A stretch of 58,875 nt of DNA from an uncultured Nitratifractor sp. (GTDB lineage: Bacteria; Campylobacterota; Campylobacteria; Campylobacterales; Sulfurovaceae): NCBI GenBank assembly GCA_947311565.1, contig CAMZLH010000037.1, forward strand, positions 1 through 58,875, written 5' to 3'. Below, piece after piece: positions 20,216 to 37,455 of this stretch (positions are counted from its first letter, which is position 1; each line of letters opens with the position of its first letter). The translations under genes and the position numbers were made by a program. The notes beneath the pieces are model-generated. The model worked only from the letters and a program-made list of their open reading frames with translations. It made no database searches and was not told where the DNA came from.

Positions 20216-21292
20216 TCAATACTCCACAATCTCCCCACTCAAACTCTTCAAAAAGGATACTACATCTTCTATATCTCTTTTTGAGAACTCATTGCCTAGT
20301 TGATATTTGCTCATTACTCTTACTGCCTCTTTTAGCTCTTTTACTGAGCCATTATGGAAGTATGGGGCTGTCTTTGCTATCTCTCTTAGCATTGGGACTT
20401 TAAAGTTTTGCTCATTATTTTTGCCTAAAAAGCCTCCAATATTATCAAATGGGAATGGGTTATCTTTTATTGATAGTTTTGGGTTAATTAACACACCTAT
20501 ATAGTCGATTAAATATCTTCTTACAGGAAAGTGTTGTATCTGTTGTCCTCCTACTGTTATACCACTGTGGCAACCTGCACAACCTTTTGATAAAAAGATT
20601 GTCATTCCTCTTTTTGCACTGCTGTTTAGTGCAGAGTTGTTACCATCTAAGAAGCTATCATATGGGCTATATGTAAGTAGTGTTCTCTCGTATGCTCCTA
20701 TTGCTTTTTGTACATCTATAAACTCTATTTTATCTTTGTTAAATATATTTTTAAATAGCTCTTTATAATTACTATTAGCATTTAATCGGCTCTCTACATC
20801 TTTTGGTTTCATATGCATCTCAAATGATGCTTGTACTGGTCCTGCGGCTTGCTCTTCTACACTCTTAGCCCTTGCATCCCAAAATTGATACTTTTGCAAA
20901 GCAGAGTTTAGCACTGTTGGTGAGTTTAGATGAAAAGGATTCTCTTGAGCATTATAACCAATTGCTGTTGGCAAATTATCATCTCCTCCACTGTTTAGTA
21001 AGTGGCAACTTGAGCAGTTAATACTTTTATCATATGAGAGCATATTTTCAAAAAATAGCATTTTACCAAGTGCAATCTTCTCTTTTGTTAGTCGATTATC
21101 AGGAGTATCCAAAAGCTCTAGTAATCCTCTATAATCTTTAGGTATTGCTCTATAACTACCATTTAGCGCACTCTGCCTTAGCTTTTTGTCGCTCCAAGTT
21201 GTTACATTTTTTTGTTTAATAAAAAATGGCAGTGAAAATAGAAAAATTAATGTAATTACTGTAACTGTAACAGGGTGAAGTAGCTTTTTCAT
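20216..21292 (-). CDS. Di-haem cytochrome c peroxidase (CcpA/MauG family)
   Basis: 358 residues with a membrane-anchor or signal segment at about 8-25. Two haem-binding motifs, CSSCH (93-97) and CAGCH (about 238-242), identify a bacterial di-haem peroxidase that reduces hydrogen peroxide in the periplasm with electrons from c-type cytochromes. The family landmarks LGKMLFFE near 75, SCHLLNSGGDDNLPTAIGYN, FNSPTVLN-like HLNSPTVLN and KVPMLREIAKTAPYFHNGS are present. ATG with AAGGA upstream. Transcription probably starts near 21313 from an FNR-type promoter, which would place the enzyme under low-oxygen control, as known for ccp genes in other bacteria. Confidence 0.92.
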   Translation of the reverse strand: MKKLLHPVTVTVITLIFLFSLPFFIKQKNVTTWSDKKLRQSALNGSYRAIPKDYRGLLELLDTPDNRLTKEKIALGKMLFFENMLSYDKSINCSSCHLLNSGGDDNLPTAIGYNAQENPFHLNSPTVLNSALQKYQFWDARAKSVEEQAAGPVQASFEMHMKPKDVESRLNANSNYKELFKNIFNKDKIEFIDVQKAIGAYERTLLTYSPYDSFLDGNNSALNSSAKRGMTIFLSKGCAGCHSGITVGGQQIQHFPVRRYLIDYIGVLINPKLSIKDNPFPFDNIGGFLGKNNEQNFKVPMLREIAKTAPYFHNGSVKELKEAVRVMSKYQLGNEFSKRDIEDVVSFLKSLSGEIVEY

Positions 21293-21319: not shown

Positions 21320-21361
21320 ACTATATCATACTATATAAGTTTATTAATTGATGTAAATCAA
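21320..21361 (-). promoter_or_regulatory. Class II FNR-type promoter of the di-haem peroxidase
   Basis: A perfect FNR consensus box TTGATGTAAATCAA at 21348-21361 and a -10-like TATAGT at 21320-21325, separated by exactly 22 bp on the minus strand. That puts the box centre at -41.5 when +1 is near 21313. Confidence 0.82.
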
Positions 21362-29951: not shown

Positions 29952-30650
29952 CTAATCAAAACCATGCTCTTTTTTAAATTGCAATATACAGTCAGTACAC
30001 TCTTTTATCTTATTTGTATCGACTAGAGTTATTAATCTATCTCTATCTATAATTATAAGCTGATGATTAGATATAGATATTAATGACTCTTTTTTAAACT
30101 TTGTTAAAATTCTAGAAAAAGTTTCTGGTGTTAGATTTAACATAGAAGCAATCTCACTATTTTTAAGTCTGCTAAATATTGTATTTTGTCTTAATATAAT
30201 ATCTGCTACTTTTGCTTCCGATGAGAGTACTGTCTCTTTATGAACTAATGCACTAAGTATCATAACCTTACTTGTAAGTGATCTAATTATACTTAAAGAA
30301 AAATCTTGTTCACTTAGCAACTCTTTAACTATTTTAAATGGCAAAAGACCAACTACTCCATTAGTTATAAACTCACATGTAGCCGGATAAGGCATCTCTT
30401 CAAAACAAGCAAATTCACCAATTAAAGATGGTGCATCAAGAAAATCTATATGTATCTTACTCCCTTTAGGAGTTGTCTTATACATATTAACTTTCCCCTC
30501 AAGTAAAATATATAGATACTCACTGCTATCACCTTCAAAAAAAACTATACTATCTTTATTGTATTGTTTAATAAAAAGTCTATCATTAATCTTCTCATAA
30601 CTTTTAGTCGATAAACCCTTAAAGTATGTAATATCTTTTATATTATACAT
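29952..30650 (-). CDS. Crp/Fnr-family transcriptional regulator of the nitrite reductase cluster
   Basis: 232 residues. Residues 20-110 form the cyclic-nucleotide-binding-like beta barrel (DSSEYLYILLEGKVNMYK, IGEFACFEEMPYPAT), then a long dimer helix, and a winged helix at about 145-210. The recognition helix LNLTPETFSRILTKFKKE keeps Glu176, Ser179 and Arg180 in the E..SR spacing of FNR, which predicts binding to TTGAT-N4-ATCAA. The four N-terminal Fe-S cysteines of FNR are absent; the only cysteines are 82, 92 and the tail pair CTDC at 218 and 221. It is on the same strand as the nir genes but 290 bp downstream of cobA, so probably separately transcribed. Confidence 0.9.
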   Translation of the reverse strand: MYNIKDITYFKGLSTKSYEKINDRLFIKQYNKDSIVFFEGDSSEYLYILLEGKVNMYKTTPKGSKIHIDFLDAPSLIGEFACFEEMPYPATCEFITNGVVGLLPFKIVKELLSEQDFSLSIIRSLTSKVMILSALVHKETVLSSEAKVADIILRQNTIFSRLKNSEIASMLNLTPETFSRILTKFKKESLISISNHQLIIIDRDRLITLVDTNKIKECTDCILQFKKEHGFD

Positions 30651-30940: not shown

Positions 30941-31675
30941 TTACTTTTCAAACCAATTTAAATCTTTTTTTAAATTCACCACTTCCCCAACAACAATTAG
31001 TGCCGGTGTTGGTAAATCTTTAGCTCTCTCCCAAATATTTTCTAAAGTTCCAATAACGGTCTTTTCATCAGATCTAGTACCCCTACTAATTACAGCTATA
31101 GGAAAATCTTTTGGCTTACCAATCTCTATCAATTTTTTAGTAATTTGATCTAAATTATGCAATCCCATTAAAAAAATAATAGTGTCATCACTCTTAAAAT
31201 TTTCCCATGGAATTTGAGATCTCTTTTTATATGGTGCCTCATGCCCAGTTACAACCCTAAAAGAGACGGTAACTCCTCTATGAGTTACAGGAATACCTGC
31301 ATACTCTGGAACAGCTATTGCAGATGTAATTCCAGGTATAAATTCGAACTTTACTCCCATTTTTTTTAAATGTAAAGCCTCTTCTCCACCTCTACCAAAT
31401 ACTAAAGGATCTCCACCTTTTAATCTTACTACCTTCTCGTACTTTAAAGATAATTGATATAAGAGTTCATTAATCTCTTCTTGAGGCAAAGAGTGATGAG
31501 AGTCAGCCTTACCTACATATATAAACTCACAACCACTCTTAGCCTCTTTTAATATATCTGGATTAGCCAACCTATCATATACAATAACATCTGCCTCTTG
31601 TACAAGCCTATACGCCTTAAGCGTTAAAAGCTCTATATCCCCAGGTCCTGCGCCTGTTAAGTAAACTGTTCCCAT
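30941..31675 (-). CDS. cobA: Uroporphyrinogen-III C-methyltransferase (NirE role)
   Basis: 244 residues. It methylates uroporphyrinogen III twice to precorrin-2 with S-adenosylmethionine, the entry to siroheme and haem d1. Family motifs are VYLTGAGPGDIELLTLKA (3-20), VVRLKGGDPLVFGRGGEEA near 78-96, PGITSAIAVPEYAGIPVTHR and TPALIVVGEVV. Single domain; no CysG-type dehydrogenase/chelatase half. Its ATG shares a base with the nirF stop (TAATG), so it is translated as part of the nir operon and most likely serves as nirE. Confidence 0.93.
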   Translation of the reverse strand: MGTVYLTGAGPGDIELLTLKAYRLVQEADVIVYDRLANPDILKEAKSGCEFIYVGKADSHHSLPQEEINELLYQLSLKYEKVVRLKGGDPLVFGRGGEEALHLKKMGVKFEFIPGITSAIAVPEYAGIPVTHRGVTVSFRVVTGHEAPYKKRSQIPWENFKSDDTIIFLMGLHNLDQITKKLIEIGKPKDFPIAVISRGTRSDEKTVIGTLENIWERAKDLPTPALIVVGEVVNLKKDLNWFEK

Positions 31676-32772
31676 TATTTTTTATCCTCATACTCAAATA
31701 TAAATATACCAGATGGTTTCTCAACTTGAAATATCTCTCTTTGTATTGCCCAATCTCTTGTATCAACTACTACAATTGTATTAGTGCTATTAACAGATAC
31801 ATAAAGATCTGGATACTGCTTAGACCATCTAACATGAAGCACTTTACCTTTAAATGTAAAAGTTTTTACTATCTTTAGGCTATTAGTATCTATAACCTGA
31901 ATTGTTGGAAAATCTTTGCCACTAAATGTAACAGCTATAAACTTATTATCTGGGCTAAGACTTGTAAATACTGGTAGCCCTTGCACCTTTATTGATTTTG
32001 TAAAGTTAAACTTTTTATCATAAACCAAAACTCTATTATCACCAACTGCTGGTATAAACGTTTTATCATCGCTTAGTGACCAAAAACCAAAGTGCGGCAC
32101 TTTTAGCACTGGTTTATTACCCTCAGCTGTAACTTTAATTTGGCTATACTTCATTGTATCCAAATCTATTACACCAAATGCTTTGCTCAAAAAGAAACCA
32201 ACAATATATGTCTTACCCTGAATCATTGCATCAAATGGCATTTTACCAACGCTAAACTCTTTTTGTAACTCAAACTTAATCTTGCTATCTTTACCACTCT
32301 TTTTATATACAGATACTTTGTCACTGTCCATCTGTGCGAAAATTAGCATATCGTTATATATCTTTATACCAACATTTTTTGAGCCTGTTTTTATCTTTTG
32401 AATAGGCTTTAAATCTCTGCTTAAAATATCTACACTCTTGTCATCATAGTTTGCTACGGCAACATAATCTTTTCCAATTACAAAACCAATAGCACTCTTA
32501 CTTGTTTTATACTCTGCCAACTTTTTTTGAGATATAGGGTCAAACTTTACCACAAAGCCATCTCTACTGATAAGGTATCCATCTTTACCATCAAACTTTA
32601 CAACCCCATGATTCATATTGTGCATATCTTTCATATGGCTCTTGGTTAAGCCATCTTCTATAATAGCCAAAGAGTTACTCTCTCGCTCTACAACAAAAAC
32701 CTTCTCTTTCAGCGCCCCATAGGCACTCGAACTCAAAATTAAAACCAAAATAGATGTTAATAGTTTTTTCAT
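31675..32772 (-). CDS. nirF: Haem d1 biosynthesis protein NirF
   Basis: 365 residues with a Sec signal peptide (about 1-19, SSSAYG). The rest is a beta-propeller resembling the d1 domain of cytochrome cd1 (repeats such as VFVVERESNSLAIIEDG, KYSQIKVTAEGNKP, FIPAVGDNRVLVYD, VVVDTRDW), but without a haem c motif. NirF acts late in haem d1 synthesis and binds a d1 precursor in the periplasm. There is no lipobox cysteine, unlike some studied NirF lipoproteins. Ribosome binding site AAGGAG upstream of ATG 32772. Between nirJ and cobA in the operon, with TAATG coupling to cobA. Confidence 0.88.
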   Translation of the reverse strand: MKKLLTSILVLILSSSAYGALKEKVFVVERESNSLAIIEDGLTKSHMKDMHNMNHGVVKFDGKDGYLISRDGFVVKFDPISQKKLAEYKTSKSAIGFVIGKDYVAVANYDDKSVDILSRDLKPIQKIKTGSKNVGIKIYNDMLIFAQMDSDKVSVYKKSGKDSKIKFELQKEFSVGKMPFDAMIQGKTYIVGFFLSKAFGVIDLDTMKYSQIKVTAEGNKPVLKVPHFGFWSLSDDKTFIPAVGDNRVLVYDKKFNFTKSIKVQGLPVFTSLSPDNKFIAVTFSGKDFPTIQVIDTNSLKIVKTFTFKGKVLHVRWSKQYPDLYVSVNSTNTIVVVDTRDWAIQREIFQVEKPSGIFIFEYEDKK

Positions 32773-32805: not shown

Positions 32806-33915
32806 TTATAGCTCCAAATAGCAGCTTGGATCTTGGGCCCATAAGTCATCATATATTGCATTTGCACGGCTTCGGCTACCACCATTACAAATATCCAAAT
32901 ATTCGCAACCCTTGCATTTACCTTTAAGCTCTCTTGGAAATTTTCGCAAACTTTGTAAAAGCTCACTTGGATTATTGCTCCAAATATCGCTAAAATCCTC
33001 TTGCAAGATATTACCAATAGTAAATGGAAAGAATGGGTCTGGTTTTACATTACCTTCGCTATCAATATTTAAAAGCTTTCTTCCTGCACTGTTTCCACCC
33101 CATGCCTTTAATCTTTTAACCATCTCATCTTTTAACTCTGGGTATCTCTTGGAAAATCTCTCTAAAAAGATAATTGCATCCATCTCCATATTACCTGTTA
33201 CAATCTCTATATCTATATTGTTGTCAAAATAGTAAAAAGCCTTTTCTATTATAAATTCAACTGCTTTCACTCTCTGCTCTTTTGTAATATCCATCTTTAA
33301 ATTATCAAGCCCTCTACCACTATATACAAGATGCGAAATATAAACTTTTGGAATCTGCTCTTTTTCGGCTAAATCAAAGATAAACTCTAAATCTTTAAAG
33401 GTATCTCTTGTAATTGTAAATCTAATTCCAACCTTTGTTTTCTTGTAGCTATTTAGCAATTTAACTGCCTTCATAGACTCATTAAAACTCCCTTTTAATC
33501 CTCTAAAGTAATCGTGTGTCTCTTCGCTTCCATCTATACTTATACCAACATAGTTAAATGTATCCAAAATATTTTGTGCATTTTTAGTAGTAACATAGAG
33601 TCCATTTGTCGATAGATATGTAACAATCCCAAGCTCTTTGGCTCTTTGGGCAATATCGAAAATATCTTTACGAGTTAATGGTTCTCCTCCGCTAAAAATA
33701 ATAAACTTTACTCCATTTTCTTTTAACTTTGGCAAAGTCTGCATAATAGTCTCGGTAGTCAGTGTATCTTTAGAATCAAGAGTTGCTTTAGAGTAGCAGT
33801 GAAGACATGAAAGGTTACATCTATTTGTAAAGTTCCAAATTGCAATTGAGCCATCTAAACTTCGACTAGGAGTTCCATTTACAACACTCTTTAATAGGTT
33901 TGATAATCTAAACAT
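32806..33915 (-). CDS. nirJ: Haem d1 biosynthesis radical SAM protein NirJ
   Basis: 369 residues. The N-terminal radical SAM motif has Cys33, Cys37 and Cys40 (NRCNLSCLHCYS). FSGGEPLTRKD near 75 and YVGISIDGSEETHDYFRG near 137 are typical of the NirJ/SPASM group. The C-terminal cysteine set CKGCEYLDICNGG with a later Cys near 366 binds a second cluster. NirJ replaces the propionate side chains of didecarboxysiroheme with oxo groups. It begins on the last base of the nirC stop (TAATG). The nearby nirF, nirC and nirS fix the assignment against other SPASM proteins. Confidence 0.92.
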   Translation of the reverse strand: MFRLSNLLKSVVNGTPSRSLDGSIAIWNFTNRCNLSCLHCYSKATLDSKDTLTTETIMQTLPKLKENGVKFIIFSGGEPLTRKDIFDIAQRAKELGIVTYLSTNGLYVTTKNAQNILDTFNYVGISIDGSEETHDYFRGLKGSFNESMKAVKLLNSYKKTKVGIRFTITRDTFKDLEFIFDLAEKEQIPKVYISHLVYSGRGLDNLKMDITKEQRVKAVEFIIEKAFYYFDNNIDIEIVTGNMEMDAIIFLERFSKRYPELKDEMVKRLKAWGGNSAGRKLLNIDSEGNVKPDPFFPFTIGNILQEDFSDIWSNNPSELLQSLRKFPRELKGKCKGCEYLDICNGGSRSRANAIYDDLWAQDPSCYLEL

Positions 33916-34229
33916 TACTTACTCTCTTTATAGTTTTTAAACGATAAAATATACTCTGTGATCGCTTTTAATTCATCTTCGCTAAGCTTTAGCTTTGGCA
34001 TAGCATTTCTTTTGTATTTAAACAGTTTTGATACCGACTCTGGGTCTGTTATCATCGCTCTAATCTCCTGAGAATTTCTCTTTTTTGCAATCTCACTAAA
34101 AGATGGTCCAAAAGCCATAGCACTTTGGTGATGACACCCCCAGCAATACTTTTCAAATACTTTCTTCCCATCAGTTTTTGCATAGATAAGAGTTGAAACT
34201 GCTAATAATATAATAATTACTTTTTTCAT
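33915..34229 (-). CDS. nirC: Small monohaem cytochrome c (NirC-like, c55X)
   Basis: 104 residues with a signal peptide (about 1-17). Haem motif CWGCHH at 29-34 and a candidate axial methionine in RNAMPKLKLSEDE near 77. This size and position match NirC (cytochrome c55X) of nir clusters, which can carry electrons to NirS or take part in haem d1 maturation. ATG with AAGGAG upstream. It is the first gene of nirC-nirJ-nirF-cobA, preceded by its own FNR-type promoter. Confidence 0.8.
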   Translation of the reverse strand: MKKVIIILLAVSTLIYAKTDGKKVFEKYCWGCHHQSAMAFGPSFSEIAKKRNSQEIRAMITDPESVSKLFKYKRNAMPKLKLSEDELKAITEYILSFKNYKESK

Positions 34230-34335: not shown

Positions 34336-34377
34336 ATAATACCATAACCACAATTTTAAATAATTGATTTAAATCAC
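34336..34377 (-). promoter_or_regulatory. Class II FNR-type promoter of nirC-nirJ-nirF-cobA
   Basis: The FNR-like box at 34364-34377 reads TTGATTTAAATCAC on the plus strand (one mismatch). A -10-like TATTAT lies at 34336-34341 on the minus strand. The gap is exactly 22 bp. Expected +1 is near 34329, about 100 nt before nirC. The box overlaps the stop codon of the upstream pentahaem cytochrome gene. Confidence 0.75.
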
Positions 34378-35477
34378 TTATTTATCTTAACTTTTATGCT
34401 CTTAATTAAAATAGGTTTAGTATAGTTTATATCTAAATCTTTTATAATCTTACTGCACTCTCTCTTAGCTAATATAGCAAAAAGTGAAACATCTAAACTC
34501 TCTGCACCACTTGGTACTTTATATCTTAAAACTTTTGTGCTATTACCCTCTATATTATTAAACTTAGAACTTGTTGCAAGATTTGGAATAATTATCCTCT
34601 TGCCATTTTTTTTATAAAATGAGCTAAAGTATCCTTCTTTATCTTCGCTTGGACTCTTTTTATAGTTTTGCCATACAATTTTACCATCTTTAAAGAGAGT
34701 GGCTTCTATATATTTTACTCTTGCAGACTGTATAATTAATGGATGTGGCATCTTATTCTTAATAAATATTTGTAACTCACTACCCTTATATATTACATTA
34801 ATATCTACGCCAGTAGATCTAAACTCTTTATCTTTTAAGCTTAAGAATTTATGGCTATGGTGAGTTTTTCTAAATCTTCTATTTATCTTTTCGTTTCCTC
34901 CATTAACACTTGGCATATGGCATTTAATGCAACTTTGAGTACTCTCTTTATCTTTCATCGCTCTAAAAACAGTTGTATTATAATCATTAATCTTGTAGGC
35001 ATGACACCCTTTACATACATTTTTAGTGTAAATTGGGTTTTTTAATCCATCGTGTTTATCACTATGGTCAGGATTATTTAATGTTCCATAAAACGATGGC
35101 TTCATTCCCTCTACCTCTTTTGCTTTTACATTTAAAAAGAATTTATGGCTCTTTTTGACATAAGCAATAGTATGGCAAAAGTAACAACTAATTGCATCAG
35201 TATGGGTGGGGTTTTTAATATCTGGTCTTGCTTTGCCACTCATTAAATCTTTTAAATTATCTGCCATTGGCATATGACATACGGCACAACCATACTTTTT
35301 ACTACTAACTTTATCAGCAATTTTTCTATGTAAAGAGTCGTTAAAGTATCCTTTTGAGTGTAGTGAAGTCTGATATTCGTTAAAAATCTCTTCATGGCAC
35401 TCTTTGCAACTCTTGTTAGATAGATACTTTGCATTAGTTAGTGTAAATAAAAAAAATGTAGTTAAAAGTAGTCTCAT
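34374..35477 (-). CDS. Periplasmic pentahaem cytochrome c of the nir cluster
   Basis: 367 residues with a signal peptide (about 1-16). Five CxxCH motifs: CKECH (24-28), CAVCH (64-68), CYFCH (98-102), CKGCH (155-159) and CIKCH (183-187). Many extra histidines (for example THHSHK near 205) can act as distal ligands. Residues about 220-367 hold no haem motif and look like a beta-sandwich. There is no N-terminal membrane anchor, so it is not NapC/NirT. The place between nirS and nirC suggests an electron donor to NirS or a maturation role, but I do not recognise a named family. Confidence 0.82.
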   Translation of the reverse strand: MRLLLTTFFLFTLTNAKYLSNKSCKECHEEIFNEYQTSLHSKGYFNDSLHRKIADKVSSKKYGCAVCHMPMADNLKDLMSGKARPDIKNPTHTDAISCYFCHTIAYVKKSHKFFLNVKAKEVEGMKPSFYGTLNNPDHSDKHDGLKNPIYTKNVCKGCHAYKINDYNTTVFRAMKDKESTQSCIKCHMPSVNGGNEKINRRFRKTHHSHKFLSLKDKEFRSTGVDINVIYKGSELQIFIKNKMPHPLIIQSARVKYIEATLFKDGKIVWQNYKKSPSEDKEGYFSSFYKKNGKRIIIPNLATSSKFNNIEGNSTKVLRYKVPSGAESLDVSLFAILAKRECSKIIKDLDINYTKPILIKSIKVKINK

Positions 35478-35572: not shown

Positions 35573-37285
35573 TTAAGCTCCTGGAATATGTTGTCTATGC
35601 TCTACTGAGTATGTAAATGTTGGTGTTGTTAAGTTTTCGATATACTTAACAAATTTACCTGTATCAGACTCATAAATTCCTATTCTTCCTGTTGTCCACT
35701 CACTAATCATAGTCCACTTACCATGATTTGCAGGTTCAGCATGAAGCAATCTTGGTTGAACTGGCTCTTTTACAGCTGGACCAACTTTATCTGGATATGG
35801 TACAACTTTTTCATCTCCAATAGCTTTCTCTGCGACTTTAACATTTTCGTGTTGAGTTGCATCCCACTCTTGAATAACTTTTCCACTCTTAGCATCTATT
35901 AACTGACCCTTAGTTTTACCAACTTTAATAATTCTATCTGTCTCTAATGTCTCTTTATTAATTAGGTGAACTTCATTAAACTTCTCTGGCTTACCAAGAA
36001 CACAGTCAGACCAAATCCATGGTGTATGAGGTGCAGTACCAACAAATAATCCACCACCACTAGTTTTAACTTTTTTAACAACTTTCCAACTTGGAGACTC
36101 CCAAATTACAACTGAACCAAAGTTCATAGAGTTTGTAGCATTAAGTTGTTTACCCATTTTTTTACTAAACCAGCTAGAACCTTGCCCTGGGTGTGGCTTA
36201 GACTTATCACCAGTATGTACAGAAGCTGCCAATTTTTTTGTCTCAAAATCTACAATACCTACTAAGTCACTACCTTGAGAAGCAATCATAAAGTATCTAC
36301 CATGATCTTTACCCTCATTCTCATTTAAGAATGCATCATGTAAAATTTTACCAATATTTTCTACTTTTCCAACAATTGGGAAGTCTTTTTTAGAGTAGTC
36401 TATAATATATACAGATCCTGCATCTTTAAGTGCCATTGCAAAGTATGGACCATACGGAGTATCTGCTAATGAAGCAACTCTTGAGCTACCTGTTCCACCA
36501 CCAATTAGTGGCACATTAGAAGTATCATATACTTTTAGTGGCTCTAGTGTATGAGCATCACAAAGCACTGCACCACCTGGGTTATAGTCACCTGCAATTA
36601 CATATTTGCCATCTGGACTAACTGCAAGACCACGAGACTCTTGACCTACTTGTACTGTAGCTAGTGCTGGTTGCCCAGGAGCTGCCAAATCAAACATTGT
36701 TAAACGACCACTTCTTGAAATTGAGTAAGCATATCTTGGATATGCTTTGTTTGTAACTGTAACATGCACTGCAAATCCAGCTTTATGACGGCTTAATACT
36801 TTACCACTTGTAGAGTCGATAAAGTCAACCAAAGATGCATCTCTTTCAGTTGCAAATGTAATATCTTTTACATCTTTAACATCTGTAGCTTTTGGATACT
36901 TTTTAGCCAACTCATCAACATCTACTAATTTTTTGTATGTCTTTTTAACTTCGTCAAGTTTTAACACCATTTTTTTAGTATTTTTCCACTCTCTAAGCCA
37001 CTTAACCATACCTTTGGCATCATCATCACTAAATTTTATACCAGAACTATTTTTACCCCAAGCTGGCATTGCAGTATTTTCTATACCATTTAAAATATTA
37101 TCAATTAATACTTTATCATCTTTTTTACTTAATGCTTTTGCTCTTAAATCTGCACCAACACCACCTTGGTGAATAGAACCATGACACCCTGAACACTCTC
37201 TATCGTACACTTTATCATAATCCATAGCCATCAAACTTGTTGTTGCAAATACTACTGCACAACTCATCATTAATTTTAGTTTCAT
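35573..37285 (-). CDS. nirS: Cytochrome cd1 nitrite reductase
   Basis: 570 residues. It reduces nitrite to nitric oxide in the periplasm, the defining step of denitrification. Signal peptide about 1-20. The N-terminal haem c domain has CSGCH at 31-35 and GVGADLRAKAL. The long d1 propeller follows (about 140-570) with YPRYAYSISRSGRLTMFDL, QESRGLAVSPDGKYVIAGDY and HLINKETLETDRII. AAAGGAGAG precedes the ATG. Transcribed from an FNR-type promoter and followed by the pentahaem cytochrome 95 bp downstream. Confidence 0.96.
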   Translation of the reverse strand: MKLKLMMSCAVVFATTSLMAMDYDKVYDRECSGCHGSIHQGGVGADLRAKALSKKDDKVLIDNILNGIENTAMPAWGKNSSGIKFSDDDAKGMVKWLREWKNTKKMVLKLDEVKKTYKKLVDVDELAKKYPKATDVKDVKDITFATERDASLVDFIDSTSGKVLSRHKAGFAVHVTVTNKAYPRYAYSISRSGRLTMFDLAAPGQPALATVQVGQESRGLAVSPDGKYVIAGDYNPGGAVLCDAHTLEPLKVYDTSNVPLIGGGTGSSRVASLADTPYGPYFAMALKDAGSVYIIDYSKKDFPIVGKVENIGKILHDAFLNENEGKDHGRYFMIASQGSDLVGIVDFETKKLAASVHTGDKSKPHPGQGSSWFSKKMGKQLNATNSMNFGSVVIWESPSWKVVKKVKTSGGGLFVGTAPHTPWIWSDCVLGKPEKFNEVHLINKETLETDRIIKVGKTKGQLIDAKSGKVIQEWDATQHENVKVAEKAIGDEKVVPYPDKVGPAVKEPVQPRLLHAEPANHGKWTMISEWTTGRIGIYESDTGKFVKYIENLTTPTFTYSVEHRQHIPGA

Positions 37286-37413
37286 TTTTACTCTCCTTTA
37301 GTTTTACTCTTACTATTAAATAGAAGATACTTAGTATCAAACATCTAAACTTAACACCACTTTATATAAATATAACCTCCTTACTATATCAAATATATAG
37401 TTATACACAGAAG

Positions 37414-37455
37414 ATTATATCAATATCAATATATAAATATCTTGACTTATATCAA
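37414..37455 (-). promoter_or_regulatory. Class II FNR-type promoter of nirS
   Basis: On the minus strand TTGATATAAGTCAA (37442-37455, one mismatch to the FNR box) is followed 22 bp later by a perfect TATAAT (37414-37419). The box is thus centred at -41.5 for a start near 37407. A half-site repeat TTGATATTGATAT lies between them. Confidence 0.82.

Follow-up and report, generated by a model that had tools for sequence, protein, structure and literature searches.

A predicted Dnr/Nss-type class II promoter at a nirS gene apart from nor in an uncultured Nitratifractor sp.

The nirS gene in the window (the whole stretch of 58,875 nucleotides that was analysed) is preceded by a real and well-supported promoter, as judged from its sequence, of a known kind, that of the Nss/Dnr class II promoters (compare Nitrosophilus labii). 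We consider it very probable that this is a class II, activator-dependent sigma-70 promoter. Together with similar elements at napA, nor, nosB, siroheme/heme d1 genes and a peroxidase gene it makes up a predicted and coherent Dnr/Nss-type denitrification regulon.

The nirS promoter element and the chance of its occurrence

The region upstream of nirS was evaluated by direct reading and by pattern search. On the minus strand the box TTGATATAAGTCAA (37455..37442) is followed by the 22-bp spacer GATATTTATATATTGATATTGA (37441..37420) and by TATAAT (37419..37414). The box is two-fold symmetric and its centre, 37448.5, lies 41.5 bp upstream of the predicted transcription start at about 37407. A symmetric box at -41.5 and 22 bp before the -10 is the layout of a class II Crp/Fnr promoter, and the geometry claimed in the sequence-only reading was thus borne out. 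The pattern TTGATNNNNGTCAA-N18-25-TATAAT gave one match and none in 100 shuffles. The predicted leader is 122 nt long, from 37407 to the start codon at 37285, and contains an AGGAG site. No sigma-54 sites were detected upstream of nirS with a simple pattern search. The parts of the element are as follows.

37442..37455, minus strand: box of the Dnr/FNR type, TTGATATAAGTCAA, with its centre at -41.5 relative to the predicted start (read directly, found by pattern search and by profile score)
37420..37422, minus strand: TGA ahead of the -10, giving an extended -10 (TGnTATAAT); the end of the spacer, from the sequence
37414..37419, minus strand: -10 hexamer TATAAT, 22 bp past the box (read directly and found by pattern search)
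37407, minus strand: predicted transcription start, from the geometry
37293..37297, minus strand: nirS ribosome-binding site AGGAG, from the sequence

The identity of the gene as nirS was confirmed by its Cytochrom_D1 and cytochrome c domains. The earlier claim that three sites in the window share the 22-bp gap also held, with the site at the small cytochrome c gene one base off in its left half-site. TGn precedes the -10 at both the peroxidase and the small cytochrome c elements. The genes concerned and the other two elements of the window are listed below.

35573..37285, minus strand: nirS, cytochrome cd1 nitrite reductase (Pfam Cytochrom_D1 9e-61 and a cytochrome c domain)
34374..35477, minus strand: multihaem cytochrome c gene, downstream of nirS
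34336..34377, minus strand: second element, GTGATTTAAATCAA-22-TATTAT, ahead of the small cytochrome c gene (one base off, left half-site)
33915..34229, minus strand: small cytochrome c (nirM/nirC-like)
32806..33915, minus strand: NirJ-like radical SAM protein (best NCBIfam match, below cut-off)
31675..32772, minus strand: NirF/NirN-like cytochrome d1-type protein
30941..31675, minus strand: NirE/CobA-like uroporphyrinogen-III methyltransferase
29952..30650, minus strand: proposed activator, a Crp/Fnr regulator of the Dnr/Nss type (ETFSR helix, Cys92, CxxC at the C-terminus)
21320..21361, minus strand: third element, TTGATTTACATCAA-22-TATAGT, ahead of the peroxidase gene
20216..21292, minus strand: di-haem cytochrome c peroxidase-type gene (CCP_MauG 3e-46)

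It had also been claimed that chance does not easily give such matches, and this stood for the close composite only. A profile of 56 columns was built from the relatives' sites, which come from related loci, and used to score about 0.99 of the 1.69 Mb of the genome (the first <=20 kb of 60 contigs plus the window). The nirS site was the top composite in this sample at 28.8 bits, as compared to a simulated best of 18.1 (3 samples). Whole-genome searches and a few targeted stretches extended the coverage beyond this sample. When the 420 bp upstream of nirS were shuffled 2000 times, the exact box with gap 22 and the -10 never occurred, and with one box mismatch allowed it occurred in 0.25% of the shuffles. 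In 1.2 Mb of the relatives' nirS loci, where shared descent overstates the number of independent cases, the exact box with a -10 (>=5/6 bases) was found 129 times at gap 22, 17 times at gap 21, 23 times at gap 23 and about 6 times at most other gaps. The box alone, however, showed no genome-wide enrichment (13 TTGAYNNNNRTCAA sites, the reversed control pattern having 18). Loose composites with <=3 mismatches were rarer genome-wide than the reversed control (154 vs 226) and were dropped as evidence.

nirS loci of relatives and the predicted regulon

The separation of nirS (contig C37) from nor (contig C9) in this genome is not a contig-end effect, as each is located well away from the ends of its contig. 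In the relatives norB was found directly upstream of nirS and in the same direction at 60 of 69 loci, with norE-norC-norB-(~50 aa)-nirS as the usual linked order. The box with its 22-bp gap and -10 was present upstream of norE at 50 of the 51 linked loci with a readable norE head. Immediately before nirS itself such an element was detected at only 4 of the 60 linked loci, three of them with a 23-bp gap. Loss of the box in close relatives had been proposed as grounds for rejecting the nirS promoter. Taken literally this loss occurs, as 56 of the 60 nor-linked loci have no box directly upstream of nirS, yet it refines rather than refutes the claim, because nirS lies behind norB at these loci and the box heads the operon in nearly all cases with a readable head. 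First scans of the nirS upstream region had indicated that most relatives are without a box, which is explained by the position of nirS at the end of the nor operon there. At three nor-linked loci (L044, L049 and L066) nirS is immediately preceded by an additional box, here with TATCAT after a gap of 23 bp, which is possibly a secondary nirS promoter.

Leaving the window aside, nirS had its own element at 4 of 6 detached loci (L013, L026, L036 and L037), and the difference between detached and linked loci was significant without the window (Fisher p 0.0013, uncorrected for kinship). As L013, L026 and L036 represent one neighbourhood, the boxes, with the window counted, come from about three contexts rather than five. 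L043 has a detached nirS without a box. L015 looks rearranged or misassembled. These comparisons suggest that nirS apart from nor mostly carries its own box, whereas linked nirS is usually served by the box at the norE head. The two arrangements offer a natural example of a gene outside its usual operon with the same kind of control element.

Gap-22 elements were also evaluated elsewhere in this genome. One lies before napA (C72:17152, with the NapA-like start taken from the sequence) and another at C72:3783 before the gene that follows nosZ, named nosB by position only; the NosZ upstream of it was identified by NCBIfam. The nor cluster on C9 has two such elements, at 67727 before a 123-aa gene and at 68375 before a norE-like gene that is followed by NorC- and NorB-type proteins. 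These two boxes are 648 bp apart. At C27:14487-14500 one symmetric box has gap 22 and a -10 on both sides (L126:14459-14528 with both -10 hexamers) and serves two divergent genes, one for a NirDL-like siroheme decarboxylase and the other a Met8-like siroheme gene; in relatives, too, nirDL and met8 were found with boxes before them. A weaker element precedes moaA (C61:9871). An exact box with gap 22 at C67:29788 (L190:9789) precedes a 220-aa gene without a Pfam match, and a like box was seen at L005:10264 before a gene that starts similarly.

The candidate regulator and alternative explanations

Searches with PF00027 and PF13545 returned three Crp-like proteins in the genome and one weak HTH match below cut-off. 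Among the Crp-like proteins found, only the protein encoded at 29952-30650, about 7 kb from nirS, has the TTGAT-reading ETFSR (ETxSR) helix, and this helix was kept in 55/55 distinct sequences when the protein and its homologs were compared. The N-terminal cysteine cluster of FNR is absent from this protein, its first cysteine being Cys82. Crp/Fnr architecture, the TTGAT-reading helix and the lack of the FNR cysteines are together the marks of the Dnr/Nss type. The best match by sequence to a solved structure was DNR (3dkw, E 1.9e-9) with a common PETFSR stretch, and on the missing [4Fe-4S] cysteines and this match a strict E. coli-type FNR was ruled out. AlphaFold modelled a Crp/Fnr fold, and a PDB search with the model returned Crp/Fnr proteins generally. 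Of 298 genomes sampled from the class, 233 have homologs at E <=1e-30, and a plasmid search gave distant homologs only. No box was seen in the upstream region of the regulator gene itself.

The sequence-only reading had described a class II FNR promoter under oxygen- and/or nitric-oxide-dependent control by the adjacent Crp/Fnr protein. The class II activator layout was retained, and the adjacent protein, as the sole one with the ETxSR helix among the Crp-like proteins found, is the likely regulator. The assignment to FNR proper was given up and FNR-type oxygen sensing found no support. A nitrogen-oxide (Nss/Dnr-type) response appears likelier than FNR-type O2 sensing because the protein has no N-terminal cysteines, DNR is its best match and, according to a review, Campylobacterota encode no FNR ortholog (PMC6682613).

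In the proposed mechanism a dimer of the 29952-30650 protein would bind TTGATATAAGTCAA at -41.5, standing in for the -35 element, and transcription by RNA polymerase from the extended TATAAT would begin at about 37407. The common geometry at napA, nirS, nor, nosB and the siroheme/heme d1 genes would result in joint switch-on of denitrification in the presence of nitrogen oxides and probably at low oxygen. Binding, activation as opposed to repression, the start site and the effector are all what we infer from sequence.

The nirS box could instead be used by another regulator, either a different Crp-like protein or a member of another family. The genome encodes two further cNMP-domain proteins (C55:24614 and C25:425) and proximity of genes does not prove control, but both have different residues at the recognition helix and neither has ETxSR, which the homologs of the 29952-30650 protein keep without exception, and we therefore consider this alternative improbable. 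A repressor would not require a fixed distance of 22 bp from box to -10. This fixed distance, shared by relatives, and the poor -35 of the promoter correspond to the class II activator layout, making it somewhat less probable still that the box is a repression operator, or that the regulator represses some targets (nosZ-like) and activates others. Repression draws on N. labii, where two Crp/Fnr genes show a negative correlation of their expression with nosZ (PMC11539149), and by this analogy the sign of the regulator may differ between genes.

The least probable alternative, to which we give very little weight, is that the AT-rich DNA before nirS gives a composite match by chance and that transcription of the gene is constitutive or reads through from the upstream co-directional gene. 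The region is indeed AT-rich, other sigma-70-like matches occur at chance frequency, no terminator-like site was seen between the upstream gene and nirS, and the box by itself is not enriched in the genome. Against this, the shuffles did not reproduce the exact composite, the site had the top score in the sampled genome, and relatives have a like element either at the head of the operon or, in neighbourhoods that are unrelated, at nirS itself.

The cysteines of the 29952-30650 protein are a candidate sensor. Orthologs in the family of the window (Sulfurovaceae) have a C-terminal tail with a CxxC. Cys92 was present in 34/34 distinct tailed sequences and Ala92 in 18/21 untailed ones, counts that are uncorrected for kinship, and the co-occurrence of Cys92 and CxxC may record one event. 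The tail cysteines of the regulator are C218 and C221 only; a Bacillus-type C-terminal [4Fe-4S] Fnr, which needs three tail cysteines, was rejected on this count. It is possible that Cys92 and the CxxC tail form a sensor site, a joint site that is hypothetical because AlphaFold leaves the tail unplaced (pLDDT <50 at 215-220). The L238 homolog has Cys92 and a shortened tail ending in a single cysteine, and is possibly an intermediate or degraded form. A more far-reaching and tentative proposal is a new Crp/Fnr sensor type, with Cys92 and the lineage-specific CxxC tail together as a metal, Fe-S or thiol switch for NO, O2 or redox, combined with a regulon rebuilt promoter by promoter at the detached nirS; we regard this proposal as conceivable but rather doubtful.

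Comparison with known systems

Bacteria of the Sulfurovum type oxidise sulfur and denitrify in vents and sediments. Crp/Fnr proteins of this sort in Campylobacterota are known as Nss regulators (PMC11539149, PMC8139620), and their sensing of nitrate, NO and N2O has been described as needing further study (PMC8139620). The box layout is already known, with N. labii as the direct precedent: boxes of the form TTGA-N6-TCAA, like the window element, start 48-49 nt before the predicted starts of napA, norE and nosB (PMC11539149). The Nss proteins (NssA/B/C of Wolinella succinogenes and NssR of Campylobacter jejuni) and the two N. labii regulators are, like the window regulator, Crp/Fnr proteins tied to nitrogen-oxide genes, and we set our protein beside Nss by these descriptions. 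The window genome differs in that it has a single such regulator as compared to two or three, that nirS is separate from nor and has a box to itself, and that the regulator bears a CxxC in a C-terminal tail. What is added here is the comparison of detached nirS with nirS inside the nor operon, a regulon predicted for this genome, a regulator that is not FNR and the three-cysteine lead. With this promoter geometry, a single candidate regulator and three conserved cysteines, the question of Nss sensing becomes directly testable in this lineage.

Pseudomonas DNR has TTGATnnnnATCAA boxes before nir, nor and nos genes (PMC1274295), as in the window system. The overall similarity of DNR to the window regulator is low apart from the common PETFSR. 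Haem-based NO sensing is associated with DNR. Class II promoters of E. coli FNR have the same -41.5 box position and half-site, but the window regulator is without the N-terminal cysteines of FNR. Bacillus Fnr, like the window regulator, has cysteines in a C-terminal extension. In B. subtilis Fnr three C-terminal cysteines and an Asp hold a [4Fe-4S] cluster (PMC3520743), whereas the window regulator has the CxxC of its tail and Cys92 in the sensor domain.
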